From Acidobacteriota bacterium (GTDB lineage Bacteria > Acidobacteriota > Thermoanaerobaculia > Multivoradales > J023), in assembly GCA_003697015.1 (NCBI GenBank), contig RFGL01000311.1:1-52133 (forward strand): 52,133 nucleotides of DNA. Direction: 5' to 3'. Under the pieces are notes generated by a model, which was not told the DNA's origin, did no database searches, and worked only from the letters and a program-made list of their open reading frames with translations. The position numbers and the translations under genes are program-made. Each line of letters starts with the position of its first letter. Within the stretch, counting starts at the first letter, position 1. Of this stretch, positions 10,569 through 40,542 are shown one piece after another.

Positions 10569-11792
10569 TCAGCTGGCGGAGGGGCGGCCGAAGGGGCCGC
10601 GGCCGTGGCCTTGGAGGCCGGCCTCCATCACCGCTTCGTCGATCACCGACAGTCCCCGGCGGCGGGCGTAGGCCTCGATGCCCTGCTCGACCTTGCGCCG
10701 GATGAAGGCGATCGGGATGCGCTCGAGACGGGCGCGGGCGGCGGCGTCCCAGCGCACCTCGCCGACGGCCAGGGGCTCGCCGGTCGGCTGGTAGGTGCAG
10801 GCCGGATCTTCCGCCAGGTAGTCGCCGAAGGCGGCCTGGGCGCGGCAGCGGCAGCCGCCGCACATCTCCTTCAGCTCGCAGGCGCCGCAGCGTCCCGTAA
10901 GCCGGCCGAGGTCGCGCAGCTCGGCGAGCACCGGCGACGCCTTCCACACCGCGGCAAAGCCCCCCGCCTGCCGCACGTTGCCGGCCTTGACGTCCATGTA
11001 GGGACAAGGGGTGACGTCGCCCTCGGGGGTGATGCGGCAGTACTGGGTTCCGGCCATGCAGCCGCCGCTCTCCAGGCCCTGAGCGCCGCGCTGGTAGGCG
11101 ATGCGTTTGAAGTGCGGCGCGCACTTGGCGCGCACCAGCATCGGCCGCATGCGCTCCTGCACCTCGACCAGCTGGCCGAGGATCGTCTCGGTGGCGGCGG
11201 CGTCGAGGTCGTTGAGCCGCTGCCCGCGGCCGGTCTGCACCAGGAAGTAGAGGTTGAAGGACCAGGCGCCTTTCCGCCGCGCGAAGTCGATCAGCTGCGG
11301 CAGCTCGTCGCGGTTCCAGTCCATCACCGTGGTCTGCACCAGCACCTCGAGACCGTGGGCCTTGGCGATCTCCAGGGCGCGGACGGAGTAGCGCCAGCTG
11401 TCGGGACCGCCGCGGAAACGGTCGTGCTTCTGCGGGTCGATGGAGTCGATCGAGATCCCCACCCCCTTGACCCCGCAGTCGACCATCGTCCGCGCCACCC
11501 GCTCGTCGAGCAGCACCCCGTTGGTGCCCATCACCACCCACAGGCCGAGCTCGGCGGCACGGCGGGCGAGGTCGTAGACGTCCTTGCGCAGCAGCGGCTC
11601 GCCGCCGGTGAGGATCACCATCTCGGTGCCCAGGTCGCGCATCTCGTCGAGCAGCGCCAGGCACTCGCCCGTGCTCAGCTCGTCGCCCCCCTTCTTGCCC
11701 GCCGACAGATAGCAGTGCGGGCAGCGCAGGTTGCACATCCGGGTCAGGTTCCAGGACACCAGGGAGGGGCGAAAGACCGCCGGCGCGCTCAT
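10569..11792 (-). CDS. radical SAM/SPASM protein with C-terminal PCP_red-like domain
   Basis: 407 aa. The SAM [4Fe-4S] motif is C20-N-L-R-C24-P-H-C27, followed by the GGEP-type loop LTGGEPLLRKDVYD. The SPASM region (about residues 240-340) holds many cysteines: GGCMAGTQYCRITPEGDVTPC, then CGACELKEMCGGCRCRAQ, enough for auxiliary clusters. The last ~60 residues (WDAAARARLERIPIAFIRRK, then IEAYARRRG) resemble the PCP_red domain otherwise found at the end of protochlorophyllide reductase subunit B. The family is related to NirJ/AhbD heme-maturation enzymes, but the substrate cannot be named. The ATG at 11792 has no Shine-Dalgarno, and a TAGACT box lies nine bases upstream. Confidence 0.85.
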   Translation of the reverse strand: MSAPAVFRPSLVSWNLTRMCNLRCPHCYLSAGKKGGDELSTGECLALLDEMRDLGTEMVILTGGEPLLRKDVYDLARRAAELGLWVVMGTNGVLLDERVARTMVDCGVKGVGISIDSIDPQKHDRFRGGPDSWRYSVRALEIAKAHGLEVLVQTTVMDWNRDELPQLIDFARRKGAWSFNLYFLVQTGRGQRLNDLDAAATETILGQLVEVQERMRPMLVRAKCAPHFKRIAYQRGAQGLESGGCMAGTQYCRITPEGDVTPCPYMDVKAGNVRQAGGFAAVWKASPVLAELRDLGRLTGRCGACELKEMCGGCRCRAQAAFGDYLAEDPACTYQPTGEPLAVGEVRWDAAARARLERIPIAFIRRKVEQGIEAYARRRGLSVIDEAVMEAGLQGHGRGPFGRPSAS

Positions 11793-11801
11793 CACGCCGG
11801 C

Positions 11802-34463: not shown

Positions 34464-35717
34464 CTAGAGCCCATAGCGCTCGGCGTAGGCGAGGAGGGCT
34501 CGCTCGAAGAGGGCGAGGGGCGGGCGGACGAGGCCGGCGCCGATCTGGCCGATGCCGGGCTCTTTGTGGGCGATGCCGGTGTTGACCCGCGGCGCGATGC
34601 CGAGCTCGACCACGCGGCGCAGGTCGATGCCGGTGGGGGTGCCGCGGAAGTCGAGCGCGGGGATGGTCAGGTGCTGGTGCTCGGCGACGGTGATTTCGTA
34701 CATCTCGAGGGTGGCGTTCATGGCGTCCTGCGGGGTGCCGGAGACGAAGCTGACGATGGCCGGCGCCGCGGCCATGGCGAAGGCGCCGATGCCGGCGGTC
34801 TCGGTGATCGTCGAATCGCCGATGTCGGGGTTGGCGTCGGCGCCGGAAAAGCCGGGGAAATAGAGCCCTTCGGGGGTGGCGGCGGGGGCGGTGAGCCAGC
34901 CGTCCCCGAGGCCGCTGACGCGGATGCCGAAGTCGGTGCCGTTTCTGGCCATGGTGGAGACGACGGTCGAGCCCTCGATCCCATGGGCGGCGTCGGCCAT
35001 CGCCTTGCAGGCCGCCATCACCGGGTTCAAGACCGACAGGGCATTGTCGCCGAGGAACGTCATGACCTCGGCGGCGAGGGCGGCGTTCCCGGCCACCCGC
35101 ACCAGGCGCGGTGCGAGCAGTTTGACAAAGAGGAGGGAGCCGGCCTTGTTGCGGTTGTGCCCCTCGTCGCCCATGTGCAGGGCCTCGGCCAGGAGGGCGC
35201 GCAGGTCGAGGGGCTCGCCGTCCTCGAGGGCGGCGCGCAGGAGGGGCGCCATGGCGTCGTTCATCCAGCGTAACCGGTCGAGGACTTCGGGACTGTAGGC
35301 GCCGTAGCGCAGCACCTTGCCGTAGCCTTCGTTGAGGTTGGAGAAGGCGAGGTTGCCGTGGACCTCGTTCTCGACCACGTAGACCGCCATCGAGGGCGAG
35401 ATGACGCCCGCCATCGGCCCGACGGCGCCGTGGTGGTGGCAAGGGGAGAAGGCGACCTCGCCGCCCTCGACCAGCGCGATCGCCGCCGCCTCGTCGGCGG
35501 CCCTGCCCTCGAAGATCAGGGCGCCGATCACCGCCCCGCGGAGCGGCCCGGACATCCGCTCCCAGGTGATCGGCGGCCCGGCGTGGAGCAGCATGTGCGG
35601 CTCCAGTCCGGGGATGACGTCCGCCGCTTTGGCGACGGTCTTGAGCAGCGGCCGCGCTGCCATCATGCGGCCGACCGCTTCGCGGTTCTGGGCGTCGATG
35701 TCCCTCTTGGTGCTCAT
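34464..35717 (-). CDS. DUF1116 family protein (YlbE/AllG-like)
   Basis: 417 aa. Matches DUF1116 with NREAVGRMMAARPLL at the N-terminus, GPPITWERMSGPLRGAVIGA, FSPCHHHGAVGPMAGVIS, NLNEGYGKVLRYGAYSPEV and a Gly-rich C-terminal half (MARNGTDFGIRVSGLGDGW). In E. coli YlbE works with FdrA and YlbF in an oxamic transcarbamylase step of allantoin use (recalled from literature, not checked). It follows fdrA by 38 bp. A third partner (DUF2877, YlbF-like) and carbamate kinase are absent here. No signal peptide; cytosolic. Confidence 0.88.
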   Translation of the reverse strand: MSTKRDIDAQNREAVGRMMAARPLLKTVAKAADVIPGLEPHMLLHAGPPITWERMSGPLRGAVIGALIFEGRAADEAAAIALVEGGEVAFSPCHHHGAVGPMAGVISPSMAVYVVENEVHGNLAFSNLNEGYGKVLRYGAYSPEVLDRLRWMNDAMAPLLRAALEDGEPLDLRALLAEALHMGDEGHNRNKAGSLLFVKLLAPRLVRVAGNAALAAEVMTFLGDNALSVLNPVMAACKAMADAAHGIEGSTVVSTMARNGTDFGIRVSGLGDGWLTAPAATPEGLYFPGFSGADANPDIGDSTITETAGIGAFAMAAAPAIVSFVSGTPQDAMNATLEMYEITVAEHQHLTIPALDFRGTPTGIDLRRVVELGIAPRVNTGIAHKEPGIGQIGAGLVRPPLALFERALLAYAERYGL

Positions 35718-35755
35718 CTCGCAACTGCCTTTCGTCGGTCGCTGGACGGCGGAGC

Positions 35756-37417
35756 TCAGCGCATCCGCCGGAGCAGGGCGATCAGCTTCTCGTCGCCGCC
35801 GGCGGGCGGCCGCCAGTCGAGTTGCAGGGCTTCGGCTCCCTGGTCGACGAGGCTCGAATAGAAACTCTCGAGGCCGGCGTTGATCACCGCCGGCGGCGAC
35901 GCCAGGGCGCCGGCCTCGACGGCGGGCAGGGACGCCGGGCGGAGCGCCCACTCGCTCGCCCGGGCCAGGGCCCCGGCGACCGTATCGTAAACCTCGGCGC
36001 CGGCGTCGCTCAGGCGTTCGATCTGGGCGTCGCGGTCCTGGGGGTCGTCGCCGGTGCCGACCACAATCAGCACCACCGCGAGCTCGGGCCGGGCGCGCTT
36101 GATTTCGGCCACGGCCGGCGCTAGGGAGGCCGCCGGGTCGGGGTCGGCGCCCTCGCCGAGGACGACGTCGAGGAGCAGCAGGCCGACCTCGGGATCCGCC
36201 GCTTCCCGGCGCAAGCGGCGCAGGCGCAGGTCCGGATCGATCATGGGGTGCAGGCGGCCGACGGTGAGTTCGTCCGCCCCCAGGTCGAGCACGGTATGGC
36301 CGCGGCTGGCGGTCGGATCTGCGAGGCGTTCGACCCCGGCCAGGGCCGCGTTGCTCGCCAGCGGCGTGAGGAAGAGACGCAATTGGAGCAGGGTCTCGGT
36401 GGCCAGGGTGCCGCCGGCGAAGAGTCCCCGCAGGTAGCCCTCGCCGCCGCTCGCCGCGACGCGTTGCGGCCCGCCGTCGGCGAGCTCGGCGGCGAGCTCG
36501 GCGGCCTCCTCGAGACCGGCGGCGAAATGGAGCGACCCGATCCGGCGTACCGGCGGCACGTAGCCCAGGAAGTCGATCACGACCGGCTTGCCGCAGGACC
36601 GCGCCGCCGCCAGCAGGCGCGCCGCCACCGCCGGTGCGGGAGGCTTGGAGACCAGCGTCACGACCCGGGTCGCCGGGTCGCCGGCGAGGAGAGCGAGGGC
36701 CTGGCGTGCGGTCGCCCCTCCGACTTCGGCCGACAGGTCGCGGCCGCCGGTGCCGAGGGCGTGGGAGACGCCGGCGCCGAGTTGGTGGAGGCGGCTGGCG
36801 ATGGCCTGGAGGCCGGTGCCCGAGGCGCCGATCAGGCCGACGGCGCCGCGGCGTACGCGATTGGCGAAACCCAGGCCGATGCCGCCGACGATGGCGGTGC
36901 CGCAGTCCGGCCCCATCACCAGCAGGCCGCGCTCCGCCGCCAGGCGTTTGAGCTCGACTTCGTCGTCGAGGGAGACGTTGTCGCTGTAGAGGAAGACGTT
37001 GCGTCCCAGCTCCAGAGCCTGGCGCGCCAGCTCGGCGGCGTAGCGGCCGGGCACGGAGATCGACGCCCAGCGCGCCGCCGGCAGTTGGCGCACGGCGGCG
37101 GCCAGGCTCTTCGGGCGGTAGCCCTCGCCGCCGCCGCCGCGCCGGCGGGCGAGGAGGGCGTCGATCTGGCCGAGAGCGCGCTCGGCCGCGTTCTCGTCCT
37201 CGGCCTTGACCACCACCAGCAGATCGCCGTCGCCGGCCTCGCCGGCGTCCTCGGGCAAGAGGCCCTGGCTGGCGAGGAGCTGGCGGTTGGCCTCGGTGGC
37301 CATCACGGCGCCGCTGTCGGCGATTCCCGGCAGGCCGGCGAGGGCGGCCTGAAGCTGCATGAGGACGATCGAGTCGCAGTAGTGGCCGCGGCGTAGCTCG
37401 CTCTTGACGACGCTCAT
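35756..37417 (-). CDS. fdrA: FdrA family protein (succinyl-CoA synthetase alpha-like)
   Basis: 553 aa, the length of E. coli FdrA. It has CoA-ligase-like Rossmann units: FLYSDNVSLDDEVELKRLA, LLVMGPDCGTAIVGGIGLGF, and GLIGASGTGLQAIASRLHQL, which resembles the CoA-binding GASGTG loop of SucD. The middle has VTLVSKPPAPAVAARLL and VVIDFLGYVPP. The ATG at 37417 overlaps the amidase stop as ATGA and has AGGAG eight bases upstream. FdrA is the AllF component of the proposed oxamic transcarbamylase; together with DUF1116 and amidase genes it suggests nitrogen salvage from ureide- or amide-type compounds (inference). Confidence 0.9.
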   Translation of the reverse strand: MSVVKSELRRGHYCDSIVLMQLQAALAGLPGIADSGAVMATEANRQLLASQGLLPEDAGEAGDGDLLVVVKAEDENAAERALGQIDALLARRRGGGGEGYRPKSLAAAVRQLPAARWASISVPGRYAAELARQALELGRNVFLYSDNVSLDDEVELKRLAAERGLLVMGPDCGTAIVGGIGLGFANRVRRGAVGLIGASGTGLQAIASRLHQLGAGVSHALGTGGRDLSAEVGGATARQALALLAGDPATRVVTLVSKPPAPAVAARLLAAARSCGKPVVIDFLGYVPPVRRIGSLHFAAGLEEAAELAAELADGGPQRVAASGGEGYLRGLFAGGTLATETLLQLRLFLTPLASNAALAGVERLADPTASRGHTVLDLGADELTVGRLHPMIDPDLRLRRLRREAADPEVGLLLLDVVLGEGADPDPAASLAPAVAEIKRARPELAVVLIVVGTGDDPQDRDAQIERLSDAGAEVYDTVAGALARASEWALRPASLPAVEAGALASPPAVINAGLESFYSSLVDQGAEALQLDWRPPAGGDEKLIALLRRMR

Positions 37418-38721
37418 GCCAGCATCTCCTCGAGCCCATTCGCCCAAGCGAGGAGGGCTTCGTCGCTGCCGCTGCGGCCGGCCAGCTGGAGGCCGAGGGG
37501 CAGGCCGGTGCCGTCGTCGCCGGCGGGCAAGGTGACGGCGGGCATGCCGGCGTGGGTGAAGGGCAGGTTCATCACCGGATCGCCGGTGGAGCTCAGGCCG
37601 CGCGGGGCCGGGCCGGGGGCGGCGGGGGTGAGCCAGAGGTCGACGCCGTGCTCCTCCATCAGGTCCTCGAGTTGCCGGCGCAGCTCGAGGCGGCCGCGGC
37701 GCAGGCGGGCGAGCTCGCCGTCGCCGACGGCCTGGCCTTCTTCGATCAAGGCGGCGGTCTTCGGATGGTAGAGCTGGCGGTGGCGGCGGTACCAGGCGGC
37801 GTGGACCCGCGCCGCCTCGCCGGCGAGGAGGCGCTGGTGGCGGCTGCGGACGGCGTCGAAGTCGGCCAGGGCGGCGACGCGGAGGAGGCGCAGGCCGGCG
37901 GCTTCGAGGCGGGCGCAGGCGGCGCGCAGGTGGCGGCGGGCGAGGTCGGAGGCGCAGTCGAGGTAGGGCCCTTCGGGCAGGCCGAGGACCGGCGGCCGGC
38001 GGCCGCTGTCCGGATGCCAGCCGTCGAGCAGGCAGCCGGCGGCGAGGGCGGCATCGCCGGCGGCGGCGGTGAAGAAGCCGACGTGGTCGAGGGAGGGCGC
38101 GAGGGGGATGACGCCGTCGCGCGGTATGCGGCCGTAGGTCGGCTTGAAGCCCACCACGCCGCAGAAGGCGGCCGGGCGGTTGACCGAGCCGATGGTCTGG
38201 GTGCCGAGGGCGAGGGGACAGAGGCCGGCCGCCACCGCCGCGGCTGAGCCGCTCGACGAGCCGCCGGGGGTGTGGGCCGGGTTGTGCGGGTTGCGCGTCG
38301 GGCCGGGGGCGAAGTAGGCGAATTCGGTCGACACGGTCTTGCCCAGGACGAGGCCGCCGGCGCGCTTCAGGCGGCGGACCGCCGCCGCCTCGTCGCCGCG
38401 GAGCTCGGCCGGTGGCAGGCGGCTGCCGGCGGTGGTGGGAAAGCCCTCGGCGTGGAAGACGTCTTTGACCCCGAAGGGGACTCCGAAGAGGGGCGGGCGC
38501 GTTTCCGGCTGGGGGTGGCGCTCGATCAGCGCCGCCGCCTGCCGCCGGAGACGGGCGAAGCGATCGTCTTCGGGCATGAAGGCCAGGACGTCGCGTTCGC
38601 GCTCGGCGAAGCGCCGCTCGAGCCGGTCGAGGTAGCGGTCGAGGGGCAGCTCGCCGCTCGCCAGGGCGGCGGCGAGCTCGACGAGAGGGAGATCGACGGC
38701 GGCGATCAAAACCCAGTCCAC
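37414..38721 (-). CDS. amidase (amidase signature family)
   Basis: 435 aa. The Ser-cisSer-Lys triad is intact: Lys in FGVKDVFHAEG, cis-Ser in TPGGSSSGSAAAVAAG, and nucleophile Ser in GTQTIGSVNRPAAFCG. The last differs from the usual GTDTGGSIR at one Gly (IGS). C-terminal MNLPFTHAGMPAVTLPAG matches the family. Such enzymes hydrolyse small amides, allophanate-type or aryl amides; the substrate is unknown. I chose GTG at 38721; a TTG one codon earlier is possible. It sits between the zinc-ribbon/PCP_red gene (22 bp) and fdrA (ATGA overlap). Confidence 0.9.
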   Translation of the reverse strand: MDWVLIAAVDLPLVELAAALASGELPLDRYLDRLERRFAERERDVLAFMPEDDRFARLRRQAAALIERHPQPETRPPLFGVPFGVKDVFHAEGFPTTAGSRLPPAELRGDEAAAVRRLKRAGGLVLGKTVSTEFAYFAPGPTRNPHNPAHTPGGSSSGSAAAVAAGLCPLALGTQTIGSVNRPAAFCGVVGFKPTYGRIPRDGVIPLAPSLDHVGFFTAAAGDAALAAGCLLDGWHPDSGRRPPVLGLPEGPYLDCASDLARRHLRAACARLEAAGLRLLRVAALADFDAVRSRHQRLLAGEAARVHAAWYRRHRQLYHPKTAALIEEGQAVGDGELARLRRGRLELRRQLEDLMEEHGVDLWLTPAAPGPAPRGLSSTGDPVMNLPFTHAGMPAVTLPAGDDGTGLPLGLQLAGRSGSDEALLAWANGLEEMLA

Positions 38722-38743
38722 CAAACGGAGACCATCGATGGAT

Positions 38744-39157
38744 CTACATGCCGAAGAGACCGCGGGCCTCGTCCATGACCTGTTCGCTGACTTCGTCGTG
38801 GCCTTGTTGGCGGGCGAATTGCTCGATGCTGTCTTTGGCCATCGGGCGGACGAAGTCGGGGATCTTGGCCAGGCGGTCGAGGGCCTCGCGGGTCCACGGC
38901 ATGCGCAGGGGCTTCTCTTCCATCTCGTTGATCATGCCGGAGAAGGGGCAGCCGCCGGCGGCGGCGCGCTCGGCTGCCCCGGGACCGATCTGCACGCCCA
39001 GGGAGGTCACGGCCTGGGTCTCCATCGGGTTGGTCAGCATGGCGATCTGGTGGAAGCATTCGGGGCATTCGAAGACGGCGGTGATGGAGCCGTCTTTGGG
39101 GGGCTCGGCGCGCTCGAGGCGCATCGGCGTGTCGCAGACGACGCAGAGGAATTTCAT
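38744..39157 (-). CDS. small zinc-ribbon protein with C-terminal PCP_red domain
   Basis: 137 aa. Four N-terminal cysteines form two pairs, C5-V-V-C8 and C31-P-E-C34, a rubredoxin/zinc-ribbon knuckle pattern. Another Cys lies in GGCPFSG (C70). From W88 to the end (PWTREALDRLAKIPDFVRPM, then IEQFARQQG) it resembles PCP_red, the small domain at the end of light-independent protochlorophyllide reductase subunit B. The ATG overlaps the Mrp-like gene stop (ATGA), so the two are coupled. PCP_red in non-photosynthetic bacteria has no defined role. Metal or Fe-S binding is inferred from cysteines only. Confidence 0.75.
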   Translation of the reverse strand: MKFLCVVCDTPMRLERAEPPKDGSITAVFECPECFHQIAMLTNPMETQAVTSLGVQIGPGAAERAAAGGCPFSGMINEMEEKPLRMPWTREALDRLAKIPDFVRPMAKDSIEQFARQQGHDEVSEQVMDEARGLFGM

Positions 39158-40029
39158 GCCGTGATCTCCGCGGCAGCAAGGGCTTGGAGCAGGTTGTCGG
39201 TCGCTTCTTCGAGGCCGGGGGGCGGGCTGAGCTCGGCATCCGAGGGCCAGCCGGCATCGCACAGGCGGGCGAGCTCGGGATCGAAGGGGATGCGCCCGAG
39301 CAAGGGCAGCTCGAGCTCGCCGCGCCTCGGCGGCGGGAAGAGGGGCAGGATGCGCTCTTCCGCACGGTGGTAGTAGCCGGCCATGTTTTCGATCTGCCCG
39401 AGGACGACGGCGCGGTCCCGGCGCAGGGCGGCGAGGGAGCGGGCGACGACGCCGCGGGCGACGTCGGTGGGGATGGTGAGCAGCACCAGGACCACCCGCG
39501 GGCCGAGGAAGGCGGCGTGCTGGCGGGTGCTCTCGGTGCCCGGCGGCAGGTCGACGAGCAGCACGTCGAGGCTTCCCCAATCGATGCTGGCGACGAGCTG
39601 GCCGAGGGTGGTGAGCTCGCGGGTCGCGCGCCACACGTGCTCGTCGCCCTGGGCGACGCTGGGCAGCTCGAGGCTGGCCGCGCCTTCGAGGAAGCTGCCG
39701 CAGGAGACCACCCCCAGCCCGTCGCGGCGGCGGGGGATGGCGAGGCCGCGAAGCCCGGGCACCCACGGCGCTCCCTCGAGGCCGGCCATCTGCGCCTGGC
39801 ATGGGCCGTTCAGGTCGGCATCGAGGATGGCGACCGTCTTTCCGCGGCGCCGCAAGCTCTGTCCCAAGGCCATGGTGGCGGTGCTCTTGCCCACGCCGCC
39901 CTTGCCCGAGCCGATCAACACCACGTGACGCACCCCGGCCAGCGCCGCGGTCATCGCCTCGCGCTGGGCCGTGACCTGGGCGACGATGCCTGAGCCGCCG
40001 TCCCCCTGAACGTCGAAGTACGTCTTCAC
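39154..40029 (-). CDS. Mrp/NBP35-type P-loop ATPase lacking the CxxC motif
   Basis: 291 aa. The deviant Walker A is GKGGVGKS (42-49), with VAILDADLNGPCQAQMAGL, DVLLVDLPPGTES and VLLTIPTDVARGVVARSLAAL, all typical of Mrp/ApbC ATPases that carry Fe-S clusters. The usual IENMSxFxCPxC segment is here QIENMAGYYHRAEERI, with no cysteine pair, so it cannot bridge a cluster in the usual way. The start is GTG at 40029; a TGG-TATGGT box ends six bases before it. Next gene is the coupled zinc-ribbon protein. Confidence 0.87.
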   Translation of the reverse strand: MKTYFDVQGDGGSGIVAQVTAQREAMTAALAGVRHVVLIGSGKGGVGKSTATMALGQSLRRRGKTVAILDADLNGPCQAQMAGLEGAPWVPGLRGLAIPRRRDGLGVVSCGSFLEGAASLELPSVAQGDEHVWRATRELTTLGQLVASIDWGSLDVLLVDLPPGTESTRQHAAFLGPRVVLVLLTIPTDVARGVVARSLAALRRDRAVVLGQIENMAGYYHRAEERILPLFPPPRRGELELPLLGRIPFDPELARLCDAGWPSDAELSPPPGLEEATDNLLQALAAAEITA

Positions 40030-40085: not shown

Positions 40086-40530
40086 CCGTCTCGTTTCGCT
40101 CGCTGCGCTCCGGCCCCGGCGTCGGTTGACGTGCTTTGGGGGCCGGGTCCGGTGCTCGCTCGCTCAGAGGACTGGCGGAGGTTGGTCTGGCCGGCGGCAG
40201 CTGTTGGGTAGGCAGGGGTGGTCGGTGGTCGAGGGGCCGGCCGTCTCGTTTCGCTCGCTGCGCTCCGGCCCCGGCCCCGGGTGAGGTGTTGTGCGGGCTG
40301 GGCCCGGCCGCGGCGTCGGTTGACGTGCTTTGGGGGCCGGGTCCGGTGCTCGCTCGCTCAGAGGACTGGCGGAGGTTGGCCTGGCCGGCGGCAGCTGTTG
40401 GGTAGGCAGGGGTGGTCGGTGGTCGAGGGGCCGGCCGTCTCGCTTCGCTCGCTGCGCTCCGGCCCCGGCCTCGGTTGAGGTGTTGTGCGGGCTGGGCCCG
40501 GCCCCGGCGTCGGTTGACGTGCTTGGCGGC
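40086..40530. repeat. 194-bp tandem repeat in a non-coding spacer
   Basis: A 194-bp unit starting gtcggttgacgtgctttggg occurs at 40121-40314 and 40315-40508 with about five differences by eye; a third copy begins at 40509 and stops after ~16 bp. The stretch 40086-40120 matches an internal part of the unit (40241 onward) but lacks a ~39-bp piece. The rest of the 513-bp spacer 40030-40542 holds nothing else recognisable. 194 is not a multiple of three, and reading frames through it are not conserved, so it is non-coding. The segment ggtgctcgctcgctcagaggac recurs in shorter form near 44069. Confidence 0.85.
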
Positions 40531-40542
40531 CGGGGCGGGCCC

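Follow-up and report, generated by a model that had tools for sequence, protein, structure and literature searches.

A Mrp/NBP35-family ATPase without CxxC, paired with a zinc-ribbon/PCP_red protein: a candidate cofactor-maturation pair for a bd-like oxidase

A two-gene unit encoding an ATPase of the Mrp/NBP35 (NUBPL) family, here termed MrpX, and a small protein that joins a zinc ribbon to a PCP_red domain, here termed ZnR-PCP, is real and conserved in bacteria, and in one acidobacterial genus the ATPase has lost its cysteine pair with both genes remaining under purifying selection. The pair lies in a stretch of 52,133 nucleotides (contig RFGL01000311.1; hereafter the window). On balance, the gene content of the loci in which the pair occurs leads us to favour a role as a dedicated cofactor-maturation pair for a bd-family complex, with MrpX working as a HypB-like switch in the window's genus.

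The mrpX open reading frame specifies 291 amino acids from a GTG start, and a Pfam profile search placed the product above the cut-off of PF10609 (NUBPL iron-transfer P-loop NTPase; E=1e-42). An earlier note on this DNA had stated that the protein keeps GKGGVGKS and has no Cys pair in the usual CxxC stretch, and the sequence bears this out. Both SGKGGVGKS and the Walker B motif DLPPG are intact and kept in relatives, with the Walker A positions through K48 invariant and S49 found in >90% of 52 aligned relatives, and the CxxC region reads IENMAGYYHRAEE with no cysteine at all, the CxxC site itself being HRAE (codons CAC-CGT-GCG-GAA). The remaining cysteines, C77, C110 and C257, are each isolated. 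A canonical Mrp with CPSC is encoded elsewhere in the genome (C241), so MrpX is a divergent second copy, and it scored below the NCBIfam equivalog cut-offs for ApbC (85 vs 348 bits) and MrpORP (130 vs 450 bits). The AlphaFold2 model (pLDDT 90) has as its top PDB matches Cfd1 (Foldseek E=2.1e-15), Thermococcus kodakarensis HypB (TkHypB) and ApbC. The interval immediately upstream of mrpX, which separates it from a short-chain dehydrogenase gene, contains a tandem repeat of a 194-bp unit (2.2 copies, 95% matches; 40102-40534).

Table 1. Position of the pair, its motifs and domains, and the radical SAM gene in the window.
Feature	Position	Strand	Basis
MrpX, Mrp/NBP35 (NUBPL)-family ATPase without CxxC	39154..40029	-	PF10609 match
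Deviant Walker A GKGGVGKS, MrpX residues 42-49	39883..39906	-	Alignment of relatives
IENMAGYYHRAEE, MrpX residues 213-225, CxxC region; H221 and E224 at the Cys columns	39355..39393	-	Alignment
ZnR-PCP: N-terminal zinc ribbon, Cys-Pro-Phe linker, C-terminal PCP_red, 137 aa	38744..39157	-	
Zinc ribbon C5xxC8...C31xxC34 of ZnR-PCP	39056..39145	-	Four Cys invariant, 60 relatives
Cys70 of the GCPF motif, low-confidence linker of ZnR-PCP	38948..38950	-	Conservation
PCP_red domain of ZnR-PCP, residues 88-132	38762..38896	-	PF08369
Radical SAM/SPASM-PCP_red protein (NirJ2/AhbD-like)	10569..11795	-	TIGR04055 E=8.6e-104, below cut-off; PCP_red over cut-off

In order to place the cysteine loss among relatives, the partner alignment was scanned against the genomes of 84,980 species, which returned 255 relatives, and 80 loci were examined. 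An MrpX gene lies directly upstream of the partner in 73 of these, often with the identical 4-base overlap. One MrpX (L152) is interrupted before the motif and was left out, the readable set comprising the window protein and 72 others. CxxC is kept in 71 of these 73, the exceptions being the window protein and that of its genus mate (L105); the Cys-less genus was seen in these two MAGs only. Likewise, both Cys columns are filled by cysteine in 80 of 82 aligned MrpX proteins, with the same two exceptions. The genus mate's protein shares 65% amino acid identity with that of the window and reads YHNRATG, with NRAT at the CxxC site. Maximum-likelihood analysis groups the two Cys-less proteins in a clade (100/99) nested among CxxC-bearing relatives, and the loss is therefore secondary. 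Between window and genus mate, dN/dS is ~0.26 for MrpX (dS about 1.2) and ~0.21 for the partner, and thus both genes have been under purifying selection after the cysteines were lost. The end branches of the Cys-less proteins (0.36 and 0.42) are not unusually long compared with those of sister lineages, and most diagnostic MrpX residues are retained in the window protein.

The ZnR-PCP gene overlaps mrpX by ATGA, and the earlier description of it as the coupled next gene holds: its product has two CxxC pairs, and profile searches confirmed the PCP_red domain (PF08369, E=8.8e-18, 64.5 and 66 bits against a cut-off of 32.5). The predicted structure consists of the zinc ribbon, a low-confidence linker and the PCP_red domain. 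Residues 3-45 weakly resemble the zinc ribbon of NrdR (Z about 4.9, 43 residues); HypA was absent among the listed fold matches, and a profile search did not recognise the protein as HypA. In the linker, C70-P71-F72 is conserved in >90% of relatives. The PCP_red model matches the NMR structure of the BchB PCP_red domain (2kru; Z 8.7, rmsd 1.4, 55 residues). The same part of the model (residues 82-137; 38744-38914) also aligns with the lid domain of the AAA+ proteins RuvB/RuvBL (Z 5-7, 56 residues), which may reflect a mere common helical arrangement. A role in chlorophyll synthesis, considered because of the PCP_red domain, was rejected from a survey of this genome for PCP_red proteins, in which those passing the cut-off were ZnR-PCP, the radical SAM-PCP_red protein and a Usp-PCP_red protein.

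MrpX and ZnR-PCP have an identical distribution across 59 order-level genomes (27 with both, 32 with neither), these genomes being kin, so that p-values for co-occurrence overstate the association, and in a sample of the phylum ZnR-PCP was found in 30 of 396 genomes, all 30 of which also encode MrpX. In about ten bacterial phyla the gene set to which the pair belongs accompanies an uncharacterised bd-like oxidase. MrpX does not adjoin ZnR-PCP in seven of the 80 loci; in one of these (L182) a truncated MrpX match sits at the contig end, and in the other six (L140, L145, L149, L154, L162 and L168), mostly from Rokubacteria, ZnR-PCP occurs with no MrpX detected alongside.

In many loci the pair forms part of a longer set, in the common order bd-like subunit, c-type cytochromes, Usp-PCP_red, GNAT, MrpX, ZnR-PCP and radical SAM-PCP_red. 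The CydA-like subunit matches PF01654 and is adjoined by the c cytochromes, one of which carries an EB_dh (ethylbenzene-dehydrogenase-like) heme-b domain, and genes similar to QrcA/QrcB-C (ActA/ActB) precede the set in some genomes. The Usp-PCP_red protein (724 aa in genome G012) also has a zinc ribbon. MrpX, ZnR-PCP, the bd-like subunit and Usp-PCP_red are all present in 26 of the 59 order-level genomes, the exceptions being one genome with the bd-like subunit and Usp-PCP_red without the pair (G051) and one with the pair without both of these (G006). The association extends to further genomes that carry the partner, many of them from other phyla (Poribacteria, Calditrichota and Rokubacteria among them): 32 of 35 have a gene for the bd-like subunit, whether or not it adjoins the partner.

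In the window's genus the pair is no longer within the oxidase operon. The window's genome carries that operon on another contig (L077, G000:C209, 931-9757), with the bd-like subunit, c cytochromes including the EB_dh domain, Usp-PCP_red and GNAT, whilst the pair itself is followed downstream by genes for an amidase, an FdrA-like protein and AllG, in a collinear arrangement common to both genus members. In the window these three genes, on the same strand (34464-38724), encode an amidase, an FdrA-like CoA-ligase-domain protein and AllG (oxamate carbamoyltransferase subunit). The radical SAM-PCP_red gene of the window (Table 1) is probably a further member of the set, since many loci have a related gene after ZnR-PCP. 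It is 28 kb from mrpX, and scored 297 bits to the radical SAM query; in most loci of Acidobacteriota the protein encoded after ZnR-PCP is closer to that query, at about 550-930 bits.

A dedicated cofactor-maturation system would fit both the close association with a single respiratory complex and the composition of the set (a Mrp ATPase, a zinc ribbon, PCP_red domains and an AhbD/NirJ-like radical SAM protein). The target would be a complex of the CydA-like subunit, several c-type cytochromes (one EB_dh-like) and sometimes Qrc/ActAB-like subunits, and the delivered cofactor might be an Fe-S cluster, a heme or a metal. In such a scheme, ATP-bound MrpX dimers together with ZnR-PCP would load or release the cofactor and pass it to apo-subunits, and the Usp-PCP_red and radical SAM-PCP_red proteins would act on the same route. 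The ancestral, CxxC-bearing MrpX probably carried a bridging [4Fe-4S] cluster. Where CxxC has been lost and both genes are still constrained, as in the window's genus, MrpX would most likely serve as a nucleotide switch on ZnR-PCP, as TkHypB does on HypA, and ZnR-PCP may be the cofactor holder. Taken further, the Mrp ATPase subfamily, the ZnR/PCP_red adaptor, the Usp-PCP_red protein and the radical SAM-PCP_red enzyme could together represent an insertion system for bd complexes of which the literature searched gave no description, and in which the genus would show the cluster site of the ATPase to be dispensable and ATP switching on the adaptor to be essential; we put this wider proposal forward tentatively, as possible rather than likely.

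The main rival to a role in Fe-S maturation is that the module handles heme, the AhbD/NirJ-like radical SAM enzyme modifying a tetrapyrrole, PCP_red and the Cys-Pro motif binding it, and MrpX driving its delivery to the bd-like or cytochrome subunits with ATP. A NirJ2/AhbD-type radical SAM domain is fused to PCP_red, PCP_red recurs in three proteins of the set and is familiar from the protochlorophyllide reductase BchB, the Cys-Pro-Phe of ZnR-PCP is strongly conserved, and the targets are heme proteins. However, the ancestral CxxC and the strong kinship with Mrp/NBP35 proteins favour an Fe-S role for MrpX itself, PCP_red is not established as a heme binder, and the radical SAM protein scores under the equivalog cut-offs, so that we regard heme handling as rather unlikely, at perhaps one chance in a few.

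The position of the pair outside the oxidase operon, beside the amidase, FdrA-like and AllG genes, suggests that its role in the genus may have changed, and a second alternative is that MrpX there has been re-purposed for an oxamate/allantoin-type operon, or is drifting and serves nothing. The loss of the Cys pair and the relocation of the gene, with the same genes collinear downstream, are seen in both genus members and would fit. Against this, the low dN/dS holds over an appreciable dS, the Walker motifs and most diagnostic residues are kept, the end branches are of ordinary length and the bd-like operon is still in the genome, and we consider re-purposing or drift improbable. Much less credible is the proposal of the earlier note that a split carrier arose through transfer to the partner of the cysteines with which the ATPase would bind a cluster or metal. 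Although an ATPase without a Cys pair does sit next to a gene with two CxxC pairs, a CxxC-bearing homologue beside the same partner is the rule, the partner cysteines are conserved whether or not the neighbouring MrpX has CxxC, and neither Cys-less genus member has an added cysteine in ZnR-PCP; the partner cysteines are therefore ancestral, not a compensation. Of the split-carrier idea the conserved two-gene unit stands and the relocation of cysteines falls, and a milder version may hold, whereby the pre-existing zinc ribbon is enough after the loss of the ATPase's own site. That the CxxC codons were misread or misassembled, a concern in that the genomes are MAGs, can be set aside, since two MAGs whose MrpX proteins are only 65% identical have different non-Cys codons there in an open frame.

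Returning to the maturation pair, the parts of the set belong to known families. A literature search, which covered few subscription journals, found neither their combination with a bd-like complex nor the one-genus, constrained loss of CxxC described. The tightly linked accessory genes are candidates for cofactor acquisition by bd-like complexes with c-type cytochromes, and a Mrp-family carrier that has naturally lost CxxC and has long stayed under constraint offers a ready-made test of what the ATPase does beyond holding a cluster.

Amongst known systems, MrpX shares the deviant Walker A, DLPPG and the SIMIBI/NUBPL fold with the Mrp/NBP35 carriers (ApbC, Nbp35/Cfd1, Ind1/NUBPL), Cfd1 ranking first and ApbC third for its model. 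Characterised members carry a bridging [4Fe-4S] cluster (PMC6345978), and their cluster-bridging CxxC is at the same canonical place as in MrpX relatives, whereas the window protein lacks it. The MrpX subfamily differs from canonical Mrp in its own N-terminal KxY...GDGGS...QV motif and DxNGP, in the long branch that sets it apart, and in its dedicated ZnR-PCP partner. MrpORP is a variant with an extra metal-binding module, in which Mrp is fused to a Di-Nase domain (PMC6345978); unlike the window MrpX it keeps CxxC, and its fused module is unrelated to the zinc ribbon and PCP_red. A parallel to the Cys-less state is TkHypB, a Mrp/MinD-type protein and close structural match that also has no CxxC in the aligned region. 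TkHypB and the zinc-ribbon protein HypA form a HypA2HypB2 complex of nanomolar nickel affinity, whilst no nickel site was found in TkHypB (PMC7055735). The window pair differs in that its partner is a zinc ribbon plus PCP_red rather than HypA, in low sequence identity and in having no hydrogenase link, and the analogy is one of structure and function rather than of phylogeny; the ZnR-PCP ribbon matched NrdR-type ribbons and not HypA. The PCP_red domain is, by sequence and fold, that of the BchB C-terminus and Asr4154 (2l09), but ZnR-PCP combines it with a zinc ribbon, and its association is with a bd-like oxidase instead of chlorophyll synthesis. Finally, cytochrome bd-like oxygen reductases of the OR-N type occur in Nitrospirales/Nitrospinota, where some adjoin genes for alternative complex III (PMC12342949, PMC10839748), and the family is described as yet uncharacterised (PMC10839748). 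Like these, the set associated with MrpX and ZnR-PCP has a CydA-like subunit accompanied by c cytochromes and by ActA/B-like genes, and its oxidase is a candidate OR-N enzyme.
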